Made by a program: the position numbers and the translations under genes
DNA from: Candidatus Rokuibacteriota bacterium
Lineage (GTDB): Bacteria > Methylomirabilota > Methylomirabilia > Rokubacteriales > CSP1-6
Direction of reading: 5' to 3'
Assembly: GCA_003221515.1 (NCBI GenBank)
Contig: QHSI01000109.1
Location: forward strand, 1 to 64,000
Length of the DNA: 64,000 nucleotides
The notes under the pieces: generated by a model
The model's database searches: none
Told to the model about the DNA's origin: nothing
What the model saw: only the letters and a program-made list of their open reading frames with translations
Part shown: in pieces, positions 21,784 to 27,693 of the stretch
Layout of the letters: each line of letters starts with the position of its first letter
Numbering within the stretch: position 1 is the first letter of the stretch

Positions 21784-23331
21784 ATGAAACGAAATCGGCA
21801 CCTTCGACTGTCCCTCTTCACAGTTCCTGAACTCTCGATCGGCCGCGCTCCGCTAACACCACAAAACAGCCAGTTCGATCCGAGACGCTTGAAGTACTTA
21901 GAGGGGATGGTCACTTATCTCAATGACCTCTTCGAGGAGCTCCAAAAGGGTTACTCCCAATCCGAAGCACTTTCCCGCCTTGAACATTTGCTCGCACAAT
22001 TGCCCTACTCGGAACTGGTTAAGATCGACACCGCTGGAGAACCACGTGTTACGGAAATCCCAAACGCTCGTGACCGAATCGTATTCAACAAGGACCGCCT
22101 GAGGATCAACTTCCTGGACGGTCTCCACCGTGGTGCCAAGAGCCCGGGTATCCCTGCCGGCCGCTACTCGCCGCAGGTTTCCCATATCATTTCAAAGCTT
22201 TCACAAGGAGTCTCGGAGAAGGCGCTCTCGCGAATTCTTGGGCAGTGCGACGTGAATCTTTCACCAGTGGTTGAGGCTCTCCGTAACCTTGAATTGATCG
22301 AAGAGGTCGACCCATCGACGCAGATCGTCTCTCAGAATCTGTTGGAGGGGAATGAGGACCGTCTCACTTGGTTGGGACACGCCTGCATCCTCTTTCAAAC
22401 CTCGCGATCATCAGTTTGTGTTGATCCATTTCTTCGACCGCATATTAAGTGGACAGAAAGGGACTTACAGTCGTCGTTTTCAGACACCTTCGGGGATCGC
22501 TTTTTCTTTGAACCATACGGCCCGCAACTCACTCAGCTGTCACCAGCACAGCTGCCACCGTTGGATGCTGTCTTTGTCACCCATCAGGACATCGATCATT
22601 GCAACCTGGGAGTTCTGATGATGTTGCCCGAGGACATCCCCATTATTGTGCCGGACTGTCACCCGGATCACCCGTGGGAGGTTGATCTTTTGGCGGTCAT
22701 CCACAACGTTCTAGGGCGAAGGCGGAAAGTGATCCGCCTGAAGCACGGGGAGACGATAACGATCGGTGACATCCGTGCGACAGCGTTCCCCTTTATCGCA
22801 GAGATGCCGTCCTCTCTCACGACATTCTGGAACTGCTATCTTTTCGAAACGCATGATTCAGCCGTTGCCTGCACAGCGGATTCCGCTGTCACGGATGAGT
22901 CCGTCGACCTTCTGAGCCAACGGCTACGAGCAAAACGAATCCCTCTTGTGCTCTGTGCTCGATTCATTCACTCAGGTAAGAAATCCCCCGGCTTTCGCGA
23001 TGAACCGGAACATCTCTTTAACTTCACGCGGCTCTGGGCCTGGTACATGCCCATGTGGGACCTCTTTCAACCCGTAGAGGAATCGGGGATAAGCGAAAGC
23101 CGTCTTCGTCGTCTTTCCCAGGAAACGAATTTGCGGTTTTATCTTCCCTATGCGATGGGCACGGCGCCATGGTTTCGCATTGTGGATGTCAACGATCCCT
23201 TGAGTGTCCCCATGGCCAATCTGTCGGCCCACGATCTGCGCGCGTTATCCGAAACACTGAAGGCCATCCCGAGAGGTCCGTCTCTGTTCGCGGGTAAGTT
23301 TGGCAGACCTTTCCCGCTCACCGGAGACTGA
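21784..23331 (+). CDS. UlaG-like metallo-beta-lactamase-fold protein with ~180-aa N-terminal extension
   Basis: LTWLGHACILFQTSRSSVCVDPFL ... LDAVFVTHQDIDHCN ... ACTADSA. Confidence 0.82.
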   Translation: MKRNRHLRLSLFTVPELSIGRAPLTPQNSQFDPRRLKYLEGMVTYLNDLFEELQKGYSQSEALSRLEHLLAQLPYSELVKIDTAGEPRVTEIPNARDRIVFNKDRLRINFLDGLHRGAKSPGIPAGRYSPQVSHIISKLSQGVSEKALSRILGQCDVNLSPVVEALRNLELIEEVDPSTQIVSQNLLEGNEDRLTWLGHACILFQTSRSSVCVDPFLRPHIKWTERDLQSSFSDTFGDRFFFEPYGPQLTQLSPAQLPPLDAVFVTHQDIDHCNLGVLMMLPEDIPIIVPDCHPDHPWEVDLLAVIHNVLGRRRKVIRLKHGETITIGDIRATAFPFIAEMPSSLTTFWNCYLFETHDSAVACTADSAVTDESVDLLSQRLRAKRIPLVLCARFIHSGKKSPGFRDEPEHLFNFTRLWAWYMPMWDLFQPVEESGISESRLRRLSQETNLRFYLPYAMGTAPWFRIVDVNDPLSVPMANLSAHDLRALSETLKAIPRGPSLFAGKFGRPFPLTGD

Positions 23332-23407
23332 CCGTAGAAGTGTCCTCTTCGCTGTTCGACTGCTGTTGAGCGGGGGGGTCTTCCGGTGCTGCTGAGAGCC
23401 GTCTCGT

Positions 23408-23426
23408 ATGGTGGCGTTACCACCAT
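23408..23426. terminator. Small hairpin between convergent genes
   Basis: ATGGTGG-CGTTA-CCACCAT, perfect 7-bp stem, at the 3' end of the M50 gene. Confidence 0.4.
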
Positions 23427-25873
23427 GACCAGAACTCAACCCGCAGGTAGCGGGCGAGCCTTCTGGTGAGGACATCGAACAGGCGGCGCTCGCCGCAATA
23501 GATCTTGGCGGTTCCGGTCATTTCGGACCGGAGGACGAGGTCGGGATTCTCGAGGGTGGTCGTCACCCTGAATACCTTGCCCCGCCAGCCCTCCTCCTCC
23601 TTGATGGCAGCCGGCGCGATCGCGGTCACCCGGCCTGGAAAGGCGCGCTCAGGATAGGCCCGGGCCTTGACGACGACCGCCTGCCCGACCTTCACGTCAC
23701 CGATCTCTCTCTCCGGGATGGCGATCTCCGCTCTGACGGTCTGGAACTCGTGCACCTCCAGGATGAGATCGCCCTTCTTCACGTACTGTCCGATCTTTTC
23801 GCGGGGCTTCGGAGTCGTGACAACGCCGGGAACCGCGCTCCGCACCATGACGAGCCGGAGCTGGTCCTCGAGGTGGTTCCGCTGGCTCGCCAGTCGCGCC
23901 AGCACCGCCTGGGCGCCCTCGATCTCCTCGGGCCGGCTCCCCGCCGCGAGCAGCCGGAGCCGGCCCCCGGCTTCCTCCGCTTCCTTCTGGGCCACGGCCA
24001 TCTCCTTGCGAAATCCCGCCAGATCGCCGGTCGACGCCAGATCGCCAACCGACACGGTGTCTACTTCGGCCCTGGCCGCCGCCAGCTCCTTCTCACGGAC
24101 TCCCGCCAGCTCCTGACTCTCGTCGAGCGTTCGGCGAGCGATCAGCTGGGCCGCGAAGAGTGCGTGGAACCGCTCGAGATCGTTGCGGGCGTACCGCAGC
24201 CGCTCTTGGGCCGTCGCAACGTCGGCCATCGCCTTGGCGAGCCGGGCGGCCTGCATCTGCTCCCCCTCCTCGTACCGTCGGCGGGCGTACTCGTGCCGGG
24301 TCTCGGCGGTCTCGATGTTCTGCCGGGCCAGGCGAAGCTCCTCGGCTCGAGGTCCCGCCCGCAGCATGTTGAGCCGGGCCAACGTCTCGTCGATCTGTGC
24401 GCCGACAGCCCGGAGCTCGGCCCGATAATCCCGATCGACGAGCCTGACGATCAGCTCGCCCGCGGCGACCCGCTGCCCTTCGTCGACGTAGACCTGGGCG
24501 ATGATCCCGTCAACCTCCGCACGCACGTCGGCGTTGTGGCGGGGGGCGACCGAGAAGTCACCCGAGACCGTGAGCTGCCACGGGACGAGGAAGAGCACGG
24601 CCAGGGAGAGGCCGAGCAGCAGAAGGGCCCGCATCGGACCGTTCAAAGATTTCCAGCGCGCGTTCACGCGCTCGCGCCAGGCTCGGAGCCGGGGTGTCGC
24701 CGTCGCGCGCAGCAACGGGTTCTGGAACGCAAGCCCGAGCAGGCCGGCGTAGACGAACGCCCCGGCGCCCTGGTAGCGCTGGGTGAGCCAGTCGCCCACC
24801 ATCAACGCTACCAAGCTGAGGAGCCACGCGGAGTAGCCGCCGGCCAGGAGGCCGTACGCCAGGTAGACCCGTTGCTCCCGGGTGGTGGGCTCCTCCCGCG
24901 CCGGCCCCGGCGACGCCACGAGAGCCGAAAGTCGGCGCTTGACGTAGCCGAACGCGCGGGCGCGGAGATTGTGGATCCCCAGCGCGTCGCTGAGCAGGTA
25001 ATAGCCGTCGAGCTTGATCAGGGGATTGAGGTTGATGAAGAGCCTGAAGGCAGAGGCGGCGACCACCACCAGCGCGACAGCGCTGGGCCAGGTGCCCGGC
25101 TCCGTGACCCGCCAAATGATGACGGCCAGGGCCCAGAGGAAAATCTCCAAGTAAGGCCCGGAGATGGTCACCCAGAGGCGCTTGGACTTCTCGGCGAAGA
25201 GCCAGGCATCGCTCACGTTGCAATAGAAGGCAGGCTGAAAGTAAATGAGCATGAACCCTATCTCATGAACGTGGCCCCCGAACCGCTTGCAGGTGAAGCC
25301 GTGCGCGAACTCGTGCGCCGCAGAGACCATGAAAGTGATAAGCCACGCCACCAGGAGCATCTCGACACCCCAGAGGCGCTTCAGGTCTCTCGTGATGTGA
25401 CTCCATTCCGCCACAGAGATACCGAACCCGAGCACGATGACCGAGGCGGAGAACACGAGGAAGGCCGGCGTGAAGCAGAAAGCGACCTTGTCGACCAGCC
25501 GGTCCAGGAGGCGGTCGGGATCGAAGGCGCTGAACCTCATGTACAGTGGGCCGCCACGATTGTGTCGGCGCGGGGCGGCCGGACGCTCAAGCGCAGCGTC
25601 GTCGGCCTCGAGCAGCCCGAGACGCCTGAGCGACCCGACGAACCCTTCGACCATCCCCGGCTCGGGTAGCGACCCGAATTCCTCGCCGGCCCTCTGGCGG
25701 ACGACTGCGATCGGAGTGGTGCCGTCGAGCTGGCTCGTGATGAAGTGCTCAGCTTCGCCGAAACGGAAGAAGCGTCCAGTCGTCGGATCCTTCAGAACGA
25801 CCGCGCCGGCCTGCCGGCTGATCACGAGATCGCTCCGGAGCTTGGGCAGCTCTCGTGTCACCGCAGTAGACAT
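23417..25873 (-). CDS. PqqD-like domain / M50 site-2 protease / HlyD-type periplasmic adaptor fusion
   Basis: N-term PKLRSDLVISRQAGAVVLKDPTTGRFFRFGEAEHFITSQLDGTTPIAVV (PqqD-like); HEFAH zinc motif and NLNPLIKLDGYYLL (M50); VRAEVDGIIAQVYVDEGQRVAAGELIVRL...coiled coil...AVPGVVTTPKPREKIGQYVKKGD (HlyD). ORF can extend to TTG at 25969. Confidence 0.88.
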   Translation of the reverse strand: MSTAVTRELPKLRSDLVISRQAGAVVLKDPTTGRFFRFGEAEHFITSQLDGTTPIAVVRQRAGEEFGSLPEPGMVEGFVGSLRRLGLLEADDAALERPAAPRRHNRGGPLYMRFSAFDPDRLLDRLVDKVAFCFTPAFLVFSASVIVLGFGISVAEWSHITRDLKRLWGVEMLLVAWLITFMVSAAHEFAHGFTCKRFGGHVHEIGFMLIYFQPAFYCNVSDAWLFAEKSKRLWVTISGPYLEIFLWALAVIIWRVTEPGTWPSAVALVVVAASAFRLFINLNPLIKLDGYYLLSDALGIHNLRARAFGYVKRRLSALVASPGPAREEPTTREQRVYLAYGLLAGGYSAWLLSLVALMVGDWLTQRYQGAGAFVYAGLLGLAFQNPLLRATATPRLRAWRERVNARWKSLNGPMRALLLLGLSLAVLFLVPWQLTVSGDFSVAPRHNADVRAEVDGIIAQVYVDEGQRVAAGELIVRLVDRDYRAELRAVGAQIDETLARLNMLRAGPRAEELRLARQNIETAETRHEYARRRYEEGEQMQAARLAKAMADVATAQERLRYARNDLERFHALFAAQLIARRTLDESQELAGVREKELAAARAEVDTVSVGDLASTGDLAGFRKEMAVAQKEAEEAGGRLRLLAAGSRPEEIEGAQAVLARLASQRNHLEDQLRLVMVRSAVPGVVTTPKPREKIGQYVKKGDLILEVHEFQTVRAEIAIPEREIGDVKVGQAVVVKARAYPERAFPGRVTAIAPAAIKEEEGWRGKVFRVTTTLENPDLVLRSEMTGTAKIYCGERRLFDVLTRRLARYLRVEFWSWW

Positions 25874-25972
25874 GGACCTGTCACCAAGGGAGCGAGGCTC
25901 CTGGGCGGATGCCACGAGTGCGGGGCTCAGTAGTGCCTCCTCGCCTTTGCATTGAGGGGTACGCGCCAAGCG

Positions 25973-25991
25973 CCAGGGCTAGAACCCCTGG
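25973..25991 (-). other. Second hairpin in the peptide/M50 intergenic region
   Basis: CCAGGG-ctagaac-CCCTGG. Confidence 0.45.
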
Positions 25992-26004
25992 CCCCTCGGC
26001 CTCG

Positions 26005-26036
26005 AGCGGGCGGGCGGGTTGCCCCGCCCGCCCGCT
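26005..26036 (-). terminator. Strong hairpin 9 nt downstream of the small peptide ORF (terminator/attenuator candidate)
   Basis: AGCGGGCGGGCGGG-TTGC-CCCGCCCGCCCGCT, perfect 14-bp stem; no U-tract. Confidence 0.6.
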
Positions 26037-26045
26037 GGCCCAGAT

Positions 26046-26264
26046 CTAACGCGCTGTGGAGTTCGGCGTGCCGCTGTTCGGACCGTCGAGTGTCGTTGCG
26101 TGCTCAGAAATCTTTGAATCTGCCGTGAGACCGTTGTCGCTGCCGGGGGTCGTACCCTCCGCGCCGTTGCCCCACCCATTTTTGCCTTTGGTGGTTATGA
26201 CACCGGGCGCGATGCGCTCTTCGAGCTCCTCGATCACGAGCTTGAGCGTGTCTCTCTTTTCCAT
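26046..26264 (-). CDS. Candidate precursor/substrate peptide, 72 aa, LEERIAP leader-like
   Basis: MEKRDTLKLVIEELEERIAPGVITTKGKNGWGNGAEGTTPGSDNGLTADSKISEHATTLDGPNSGTPNSTAR; RBS AGGGGA 9 nt upstream of ATG. Confidence 0.7.
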   Translation of the reverse strand: MEKRDTLKLVIEELEERIAPGVITTKGKNGWGNGAEGTTPGSDNGLTADSKISEHATTLDGPNSGTPNSTAR

Positions 26265-26324
26265 AGTCTGATTTCCCCTATCCTTGGGTTGGAAGTGACC
26301 AGCTTGACCTCAACACAACCGCGG

Positions 26325-26985: not shown

Positions 26986-27341
26986 GCACGCTCAAGCCGG
27001 TCGCAGCTATCTGCCTTCTGGTCTTCGTGGAGCCATTACTCGACGGCCTGGCCGGTTACCTCCTCATCCACGACGGCCATGAAATATTCGGGACCATATT
27101 GTTTTCGATCAACGCCCTGATTGTCGCTGGCGCCCTGTTCGCGTTTGTACCAGGGCGGCTTCGTCTCCCTGGCGGCGATACCCTGGCAGCGGCGATGGTC
27201 CGCAATGAAATCAACGTGTGGGTGGGCCTCGCTGCGCTCGTCTATTCGGTAGTCGTACGTGACTGGCTGCCCGCACTCATCTTGGTCGTCGGTGTCGCAC
27301 TCCTCGCAATTGGAAGGCGTCGTCTCGGTGGCGCGCTGTGA
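26982..27341 (+). CDS. Small integral membrane protein (119 aa)
   Basis: MSTLKPVAAICLLVFVEPLLDGLAGYLLIHDG... with four or so hydrophobic segments. Confidence 0.6.
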   Translation: MSTLKPVAAICLLVFVEPLLDGLAGYLLIHDGHEIFGTILFSINALIVAGALFAFVPGRLRLPGGDTLAAAMVRNEINVWVGLAALVYSVVVRDWLPALILVVGVALLAIGRRRLGGAL

Positions 27342-27357
27342 TGCGGGAAAGGCGCCC

Positions 27358-27693
27358 GTGACCGAACGGGGAGAGAGTGTCACGAAACTCTTGATCTCCG
27401 TTGCGGTGGCTCTGCTGGTGGCGGGACCCGCCTCCGGCAAGCACGCCTTCCTCTGGACGGCCGACACTGGGATGATCGATCTCGGCACCCTCGGGGGGAG
27501 CACAAGCGTTACCGCCATCAACGACCGTGGCGACGCCGTGGGCACCAGTGCCACTGCCTCGGGCGATTTGCACGCCTTCGTCTGGACGGCCGAGACCGGG
27601 ATGATCGATCTCGGCACCCTCGGCGCCGACGGCAGCAGCCACGCCGGGGGCAGCAACGAGCTCGGCCAAGTCGTGGGCGCCAGCAGCTTTTAG
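27358..27693 (+). pseudogene. HAF-repeat extracellular protein, truncated
   Basis: Signal peptide then HAFLWTADTGMIDLGTLGGSTSVTAINDRGDAVGTS and HAFVWTAETGMIDLGTLGADGSS (HAF repeats), then early stop. Confidence 0.65.

Follow-up and report, generated by a model that had tools for sequence, protein, structure and literature searches.

The closest described relatives of the locus reported here are the daptides, in which an RRE domain is fused N-terminally to the site-2 protease (S2P) MpaP, several short precursors (MpaA) are encoded per locus, and the leader, with its motif ELExMEAP numbered so as to end at P(-1), is removed by MpaP (PMC10036551); a later daptide paper places cleavage after ELExxxxx (PMC12338566). 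Daptides end in an invariant C-terminal Thr, and their clusters, reported from Actinomycetota and Bacillota, contain oxidative decarboxylase, aminotransferase, methyltransferase and ABC genes. Other systems share single parts with the locus. The lasso-peptide RREs TbiB1 and TfuB1 and the protein PqqD are stand-alone leader binders serving other enzymes, the epipeptide maturation protease YydH/LiaK has a homologous M50 core, and the tripartite exporters of the HlyD, EmrA and MacA type pair their adaptor with a separate inner-membrane pump. HlyD adaptors normally require an ABC, RND or MFS pump.

Here we describe a module in which a small peptide gene precedes a gene for an RRE-M50-HlyD fusion protein, located in a 64,000-nt stretch of Candidatus Rokuibacteriota DNA (the window). 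The module is a variant of the daptide-type RRE-S2P/leader pair, set apart by the HlyD fusion, by its cores, by recurrent neighbours among which no daptide enzyme was seen and, in planctomycetes, by the size of its cargo. It occurs in more than ten bacterial phyla and is apparently undescribed: a search of the open-access literature turned up no account of ELExRIAP/LEERIAP, nor of an RRE-S2P-HlyD fusion.

Architecture of the fusion protein and the peptide gene

The features of the window locus, with the evidence for each, are:

21784..23331, plus strand: MBL-fold protein, convergent neighbour (PF12706)
23417..25873, minus strand: RRE(PqqD)-M50-HlyD fusion protein, 818 aa (profile searches, fold matches, invariant residues)
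23429..24586, minus strand: HlyD/EmrA-type periplasmic adaptor, residues ~430-815 (PF13437, PF16576, fold match)
24704..25546, minus strand: M50 site-2 protease domain, residues ~110-390 (NF041824, invariant residues)
25007-25009, minus strand: Asp289 of the LDG motif of the M50 domain (invariant in the family)
25301-25315, minus strand: HExxH of the M50 domain, residues 187-191 (invariant in the family)
25604..25846, minus strand: RRE/PqqD-like domain, residues ~10-90 (profile against solved structures, PF05402, model)
26005..26036, minus strand: strong GC hairpin between the peptide and fusion genes, no T-run (folding)
26046-26264, minus strand: precursor peptide ORF, 72 aa (sequence, identical to that quoted earlier)
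26046..26204, minus strand: core GVITTKGKNGWGNGAEGTTPGSDNGLTADSKISEHATTLDGPNSGTPNSTAR of the precursor, with stop codon (sequence; core type shared with L040)
26205..26264, minus strand: leader MEKRDTLKLVIEELEERIAP of the precursor, predicted cut after P20 (consensus of 82 relatives; cut site by analogy with daptides)
26274..26285, minus strand: RBS-like AAGGATAGGGGA 5' of the peptide ATG (sequence; RBS-like motif in 73 of 82 relatives)

The open frame of the fusion gene begins at TTG 25969; the likely start is ATG 25873, because the orthologue at the sister locus L040 starts at the same residue. A first-pass annotation had placed PqqD-like, M50 and HlyD regions in this one gene, and profile and fold searches agree. 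Its assignment of the N-terminus to PqqD/RRE fails for the window protein taken singly in Pfam and holds at the level of the family, where PF05402 (PqqD) matches 17 of 42 members and a profile of the domain scores best, among solved structures, with the RRE TbiB1 (5.7e-5), PqqD (0.007) and the RRE TfuB1 (0.023). The domain model has three strands followed by three helices. Unlike its stand-alone structural relatives, this RRE is part of a fusion.

M50 is matched in 41 and HlyD in all of the 42 members, and H187, E188, H191, D289 and G290 are invariant among them, leaving HExxH and LDG intact. The daptide protease model NF041824 scores 209.5 bits against the window protein, which marks it as homologous but below the equivalog cutoff of 300, and this homology extends to 42/42 members. 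All 42 also match the YydH/LiaK model (NF058609), weakly and far below its curated cutoff; the module differs from that epipeptide system in its HlyD arm and its other precursors. The adaptor half, which is the type of adaptor by which type I secretion is recognised, is like the HlyD/EmrA/MacA exporters in sequence and fold, with fold matches to EmrA (4tko, 2.8e-18) and MacA. In contrast to those exporters, the adaptor is fused to the RRE and protease, and an ABC, MFS or RND partner was not seen to recur. The protein ends in FWSWW, a C-terminus kept across phyla in most members (A2 and A4).

Variants of the fusion protein were also observed. Those at L035:8335-10053 and L037:9128-10762 (544-572 aa) lack the HlyD coiled-coil and lipoyl part, and the peptide cores at L035, L036 and L037 are Cys-rich (GSGCGCECHCGG, GSGCECEEDCE and GGDGGCDCEEEDSCD). 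A distant PqqD-M50 protein without the HlyD arm (G000:C27, L003:1378-2604) adjoins a cyclic-nucleotide-binding-like ORF.

The peptide gene is exactly as the annotation had quoted it, a 72-aa minus-strand ORF 5' of the co-oriented fusion gene with a good RBS (AAGGATAGGGGA) ahead of its ATG. Its leader (MEKRDTLKLVIEELEERIAPG) is charged and has no h-region, and judged from sequence alone it does not resemble a Sec/Tat signal peptide; the final residue of the peptide is R. The L040 peptide has a core of the same type (GNGAEGTNPGSDNGL). Between the two loci the leader is constrained (dN/dS ~0.12), whereas the core, with few changes, has dN >= dS and shows no constraint, a point against the export mechanism proposed below. 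The 76-nt stretch holding the hairpin folds at -55.2 kcal/mol (z -4.7). A simple terminator scan called no intrinsic terminator in the window despite this strong hairpin, which is possibly an attenuator or mRNA stabiliser; many relatives also have a strong hairpin 3' of the peptide gene.

Co-occurrence of leader and fusion gene

The same genome carries, on another contig, a paralogous fusion gene (84% identical to that of the window), and directly 5' of it lie four small ORFs, each with (I/V)EELEQRIAP[SD] ahead of a tail rich in Gly, Asn and Pro. The DNA pattern LExRIAP has five matches in this 5.1 Mb genome, namely the window peptide and the paralogue's four, and the reversed-pattern control has 0. 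Across 95 genomes of the phylum, the pattern ExLExRIAP occurs in 11/14 with the fusion gene versus 8/81 without it (Fisher p=2.7e-7, relatedness ignored). Two of these eight, G036 and G054, hold real leader ORFs; the G036 locus ends at the contig end, and in G054 the fusion gene was not found. Among 199 Acidobacteriota genomes the leader pattern is present in 7/14 with the fusion gene versus 9/185 without (p=1.3e-5, relatedness ignored), and in all seven co-occurrences the motif is on the contig of the fusion gene and close by.

A scan of a genome collection for conserved stretches of the fusion protein yielded 80 loci, from Rokubacteria, Acidobacteria, Verrucomicrobia, Nitrospirae, Nitrospinae, Eisenbacteria, Gemmatimonadetes, Bacteroidetes, Ignavibacteria, Zixibacteria, Aminicenantes, Planctomycetes, Latescibacteria and proteobacterial bins. 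At these loci 65 leader matches fall on the same strand in the 133 kb directly upstream and 0 on the opposite strand there, with 9 just downstream of the fusion gene and, in 506 kb of distant DNA, a single one, so that the leader family is ~250-fold enriched directly 5' of fusion genes. The scanned and own-phylum loci together gave 82 leader ORFs in 55 loci, and the co-occurrence in other genomes on which the annotation had staked its proposal is thereby found.

Within a clade of 36 fusion proteins from about nine phyla the peptide is present in 32; three of the other four have little upstream contig DNA, and the fourth is L044. In the divergent branches of Acidobacteria, Zixibacteria and Ignavibacteria the fusion gene is mostly without an LExRIAP ORF, which counts against the mechanism proposed below.

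At L044:3740-3790 a core remnant (GLKGCEGQPGNQGG, GQPGNQGG) with no leader lies 5' of the intact fusion gene and resembles a decayed precursor. The loci L086, L088 and L103, of the divergent acidobacterial branch, have a tiny downstream ORF beginning MQTEIE[IV]LE[ST]RE[TA]P.., perhaps another leader type.

Anatomy of leaders and cores

The leader consensus of the 82 relatives is L-x-[IV]-E-x-L-E-[EQA]-R-I-A-P-[GSDT], in which the search pattern itself dictated L, R, I and P of LExRIAP but left E at -2, [IV] at -3 and L/F at -5 free. Leaders run to ~18 residues up to the P and have no hydrophobic stretch. The cores range in length from 8 to 230 residues, with a median of 37, and are hydrophilic, repeat-rich and variable, with much Gly, Ser, Asn and Pro, no fixed last residue and no invariant modifiable residue. 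Several core types recur between phyla (NPGNNNPPLNNTNNPGNEGTGG, GYEGQPGNQG, NNGNPGNEVSNG and TANPEG, as well as His/Lys/Ser repeats), and no Pfam or NCBIfam model matched the peptide families. Purifying selection on the leaders indicates that the small ORF is conserved as protein, as the annotation had supposed. Whole peptides of L043 and L073, leader and core together, are likewise under purifying selection (dN/dS 0.02-0.08), and therefore the core sequences there matter. A precursor of leader plus core, its conservation and an RRE in the partner protein, with binding predicted, together make this a RiPP precursor by anatomy, as far as the sequence can tell.

The shortest cores, of only ~8 residues (TRAAIAMG, GSASNGSS, GSASNGAM), were seen at L071, L072 (3-4 copies), L101 and L138, in Aminicenantes- and Zixibacteria-type genomes, where some short precursors are opposite in strand to the fusion gene.

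Proposed mechanism

The fusion resembles the daptide pair in having an RRE N-terminal to an intramembrane S2P and several short precursors per locus, and its leader motif ELExRIAP has the same eight-residue layout as ELExMEAP, with R in place of M(-4) and I in place of E(-3). It differs in the HlyD adaptor at its C-terminus, which MpaP lacks, in its leader, which is not ELExMEAP, and in its hydrophilic cores, only 1/82 peptides ending in T. The fusion members examined come mostly from Gram-negative phyla. Neighbour clustering, with an HMM scan of part of the neighbours, found no recurrent family corresponding to the daptide MpaB/C/D/M enzymes or an ABC gene. A daptide in the strict sense was rejected, the C-terminal Thr being absent and no daptide enzyme having been seen among recurrent neighbours. 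The annotation had found no RiPP class that it could name; the MpaP/MpaA pair is nonetheless a known relative (PMC10036551).

We consider it probable that the locus is a leader-guided module for peptide maturation and export. From the layout that ELExRIAP shares with the daptide leader we infer RRE binding, a cut after ...RIAP and hand-over to HlyD/TolC, and with them the direction of transport. The leader, ...L-x-I-E-E-L-E-x-R-I-A-P, would bind the RRE domain of the fusion on the cytoplasmic side, and the M50 site-2 protease would then cut just after the AP of RIAP, as reported for MpaP. The freed hydrophilic core would exit through the HlyD arm, itself docked to an outer-membrane channel of the TolC type. 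A single polypeptide unites recognition, cleavage and adaptor, and an ABC transporter is not recurrent nearby; the gate could therefore be the S2P membrane domain itself or a borrowed housekeeping pump. Cassettes of several peptides with recurring cores would release peptide mixtures outside, and at certain loci the peptide may be modified by the products of an extra operon (ParB/Srx-fold protein, FemAB-like transferase, TolC). The annotation had likewise proposed the acidic/basic N-terminus as a leader for the PqqD-like (RRE) domain and the Gly/Asn/Thr/Ser-rich tail as what is processed and exported; both roles, as inferred ones, are well supported by co-occurrence, the N-terminal RRE and conservation.

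Transport genes fit this mechanism less evenly. TolC-family (PF02321) genes lie near 9 loci, but none was seen next to the window locus, and no ABC, RND or MFS pump recurs near fusion genes; both points count against leader-guided export. A motif test (Walker A plus signature) confined to the neighbourhoods found no ABC transporter in 565 neighbour ORFs from 55 loci.

Were the mechanism correct, RRE-guided leader recognition, so far a matter of natural-product biosynthesis, would extend to an export route widespread among planctomycetes and Gram-negative soil bacteria, with recognition, cleavage and periplasmic hand-over joined in one polypeptide. The ELExRIAP motif offers a handle for mining peptide families that have no Pfam/NCBIfam match.

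Large planctomycete proteins with the same N-terminus

Large secreted planctomycete proteins without a classical signal peptide carry a short LExR motif near the N-terminus, annotated at NCBI as LEPR-XLL. The tag described here resembles it in this short motif, the proteins examined being of the LE[DE]RIAP type. One Gemmataceae genome has the motif 14 times: once in a peptide of GSHK repeats encoded near the fusion gene, and a dozen or so times at the start (LE[DES]RIAP) of large proteins with subtilase, dockerin-like, CARDB or CBM96 domains. The N-terminal sequence ...EELEERIAP likewise opens proteins of 700-1500 aa in other planctomycetes. A profile search found the fusion gene in 6/6 planctomycete genomes picked for such N-termini versus 4/19 others, the genomes having been chosen by N-termini before the gene search and HlyD-only matches not being counted. 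The corresponding probability, C(10,6)/C(25,6) ~0.001, is without tree correction and omits G101, G095 and G096, which were chosen for having the fusion gene. One planctomycete locus (L112) comes from the cultured Adhaeretor mobilis (complete genome NZ_CP036263).

The 6/6 versus 4/19 contrast and the LExRIAP-type N-termini of large proteins suggest a general sorting signal. The leader would then be an N-terminal sorting tag and the fusion protein a receptor and peptidase for many cargoes, the small peptides being the simplest, and this is in keeping with the Gemmataceae genome, where tagged large proteins occur alongside the small peptide encoded close to the fusion gene, and with the ...EELEERIAP proteins of the other planctomycetes. 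Yet in most cases the large proteins are not encoded next to the fusion gene, a more distant fusion protein can be present in planctomycete genomes that lack the motif, and passage of a 1000-aa cargo through HlyD/TolC without an ATPase is hard to imagine. We regard this as nearly an even call, leaning slightly against it. A broader form, that LExRIAP is a general non-Sec/Tat N-terminal signal served in more than ten phyla by a one-protein RRE/S2P/HlyD device without its own ABC ATPase, acting on peptide cassettes or on dockerin-, subtilase- and repeat-bearing surface proteins of planctomycetes, is more tentative still. Very probably, the ELExRIAP tag directs peptides to cleavage and export, and in some planctomycetes it would do the same for large surface proteins; the fusion protein is a candidate for the receptor of an N-terminal planctomycete motif for which no assigned machinery was found.

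Neighbouring genes and the question of modification

Neighbour clustering revealed no recurrent modifying enzyme at the window locus or at the multi-peptide cassette loci, and a motif search of neighbour ORFs found no radical-SAM motif adjoining a fusion gene. A defence system and plasmid carriage were considered and rejected, with no PADLOC match and no plasmid match, respectively. At four loci the operon is extended beside the fusion gene:

L046:3999-9213: operon extension
L119:10861-13746: operon extension
L062 and L077: operon extension, likewise

These operons add a conserved 324-345-aa protein, a FemAB-family transferase and TolC, and some also carry a 219-224-aa protein of unknown family. 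The 324-345-aa protein has no Pfam/NCBIfam match, and its model resembles only ParB/sulfiredoxin/serine-kinase folds, with weak E-values. The ParB/Srx-fold protein, FemAB-like transferase and TolC are candidates for modification or export in this branch only. In planctomycetes (L105, L107, L110, L111 and L112) a 142-169-aa protein with ..HVLIDGHHRAARCL.. is encoded just 5' of the fusion gene; HVLIDGHHRAARCL resembles the ParB/Srx motif of the 335-aa partner at other loci.

These operons bear on whether the module is, strictly speaking, a RiPP class not yet described, its core modified by enzymes nearby or elsewhere and the fusion protein only removing the leader and exporting the product. RRE domains and S2P relatives are RiPP parts, the four operons bring a ParB/Srx-like protein, a FemAB-family transferase and in some cases the 219-224-aa protein, and the MBL protein of the window could be an enzyme. 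We nevertheless think this doubtful: the window and multi-peptide cassette loci lack a recurrent modifying enzyme, radical-SAM motifs do not adjoin the fusion gene, and the hydrophilic, variable, repeat-rich cores offer no invariant modifiable residue.

The convergent MBL-fold gene

The annotation had described a convergent UlaG-like MBL-fold gene as a part of the module. The gene is present, and its product has the MBL fold by PF12706 (Lactamase_B_2, 44.9 bits) and is weakly UlaG-like. Curated UlaG-like and PqqB models do not bear out a closer assignment, PRK00685 (metal-dependent hydrolase) scoring 18.5 bits against a cutoff of 144 and PqqB giving no match. Membership in the module did not survive the comparison of loci. 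The gene adjoins the module only in the window and at L040 (89% identical MBL) and is 6.3 kb off on the same contig in L056; it is absent near the paralogue and near 78/80 scanned loci, and as a regular component it was rejected. A role as a genuine third component, such as a hydrolase with the peptide as its substrate, accordingly seems improbable despite the shared arrangement in L040 and the shared contig in L056, the more so as the gene stands on the opposite strand and, in G036, G046 and G054, on a different contig from the peptide ORF. The gene occurs in 4/95 genomes of the phylum, and since all four match the leader pattern (p=0.0012, no relatedness correction), which also speaks for a third component, we keep it as a possible accessory, unlinked to the module.

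That the small ORF is chance or noise and its association coincidental, as the shortness of the frame, its low-complexity tail and the GC-rich genome might suggest, is ruled out for practical purposes by the positional enrichment and codon evidence, the paralogue's four leader ORFs, the genome-wide pattern counts and the genome-level co-occurrence in two phyla. Beyond the peptide gene in the window, the ORF at 27259-27693 contains repeats of the form HAFVWTAETGMIDLGTLGG (HAF-type extracellular repeats).
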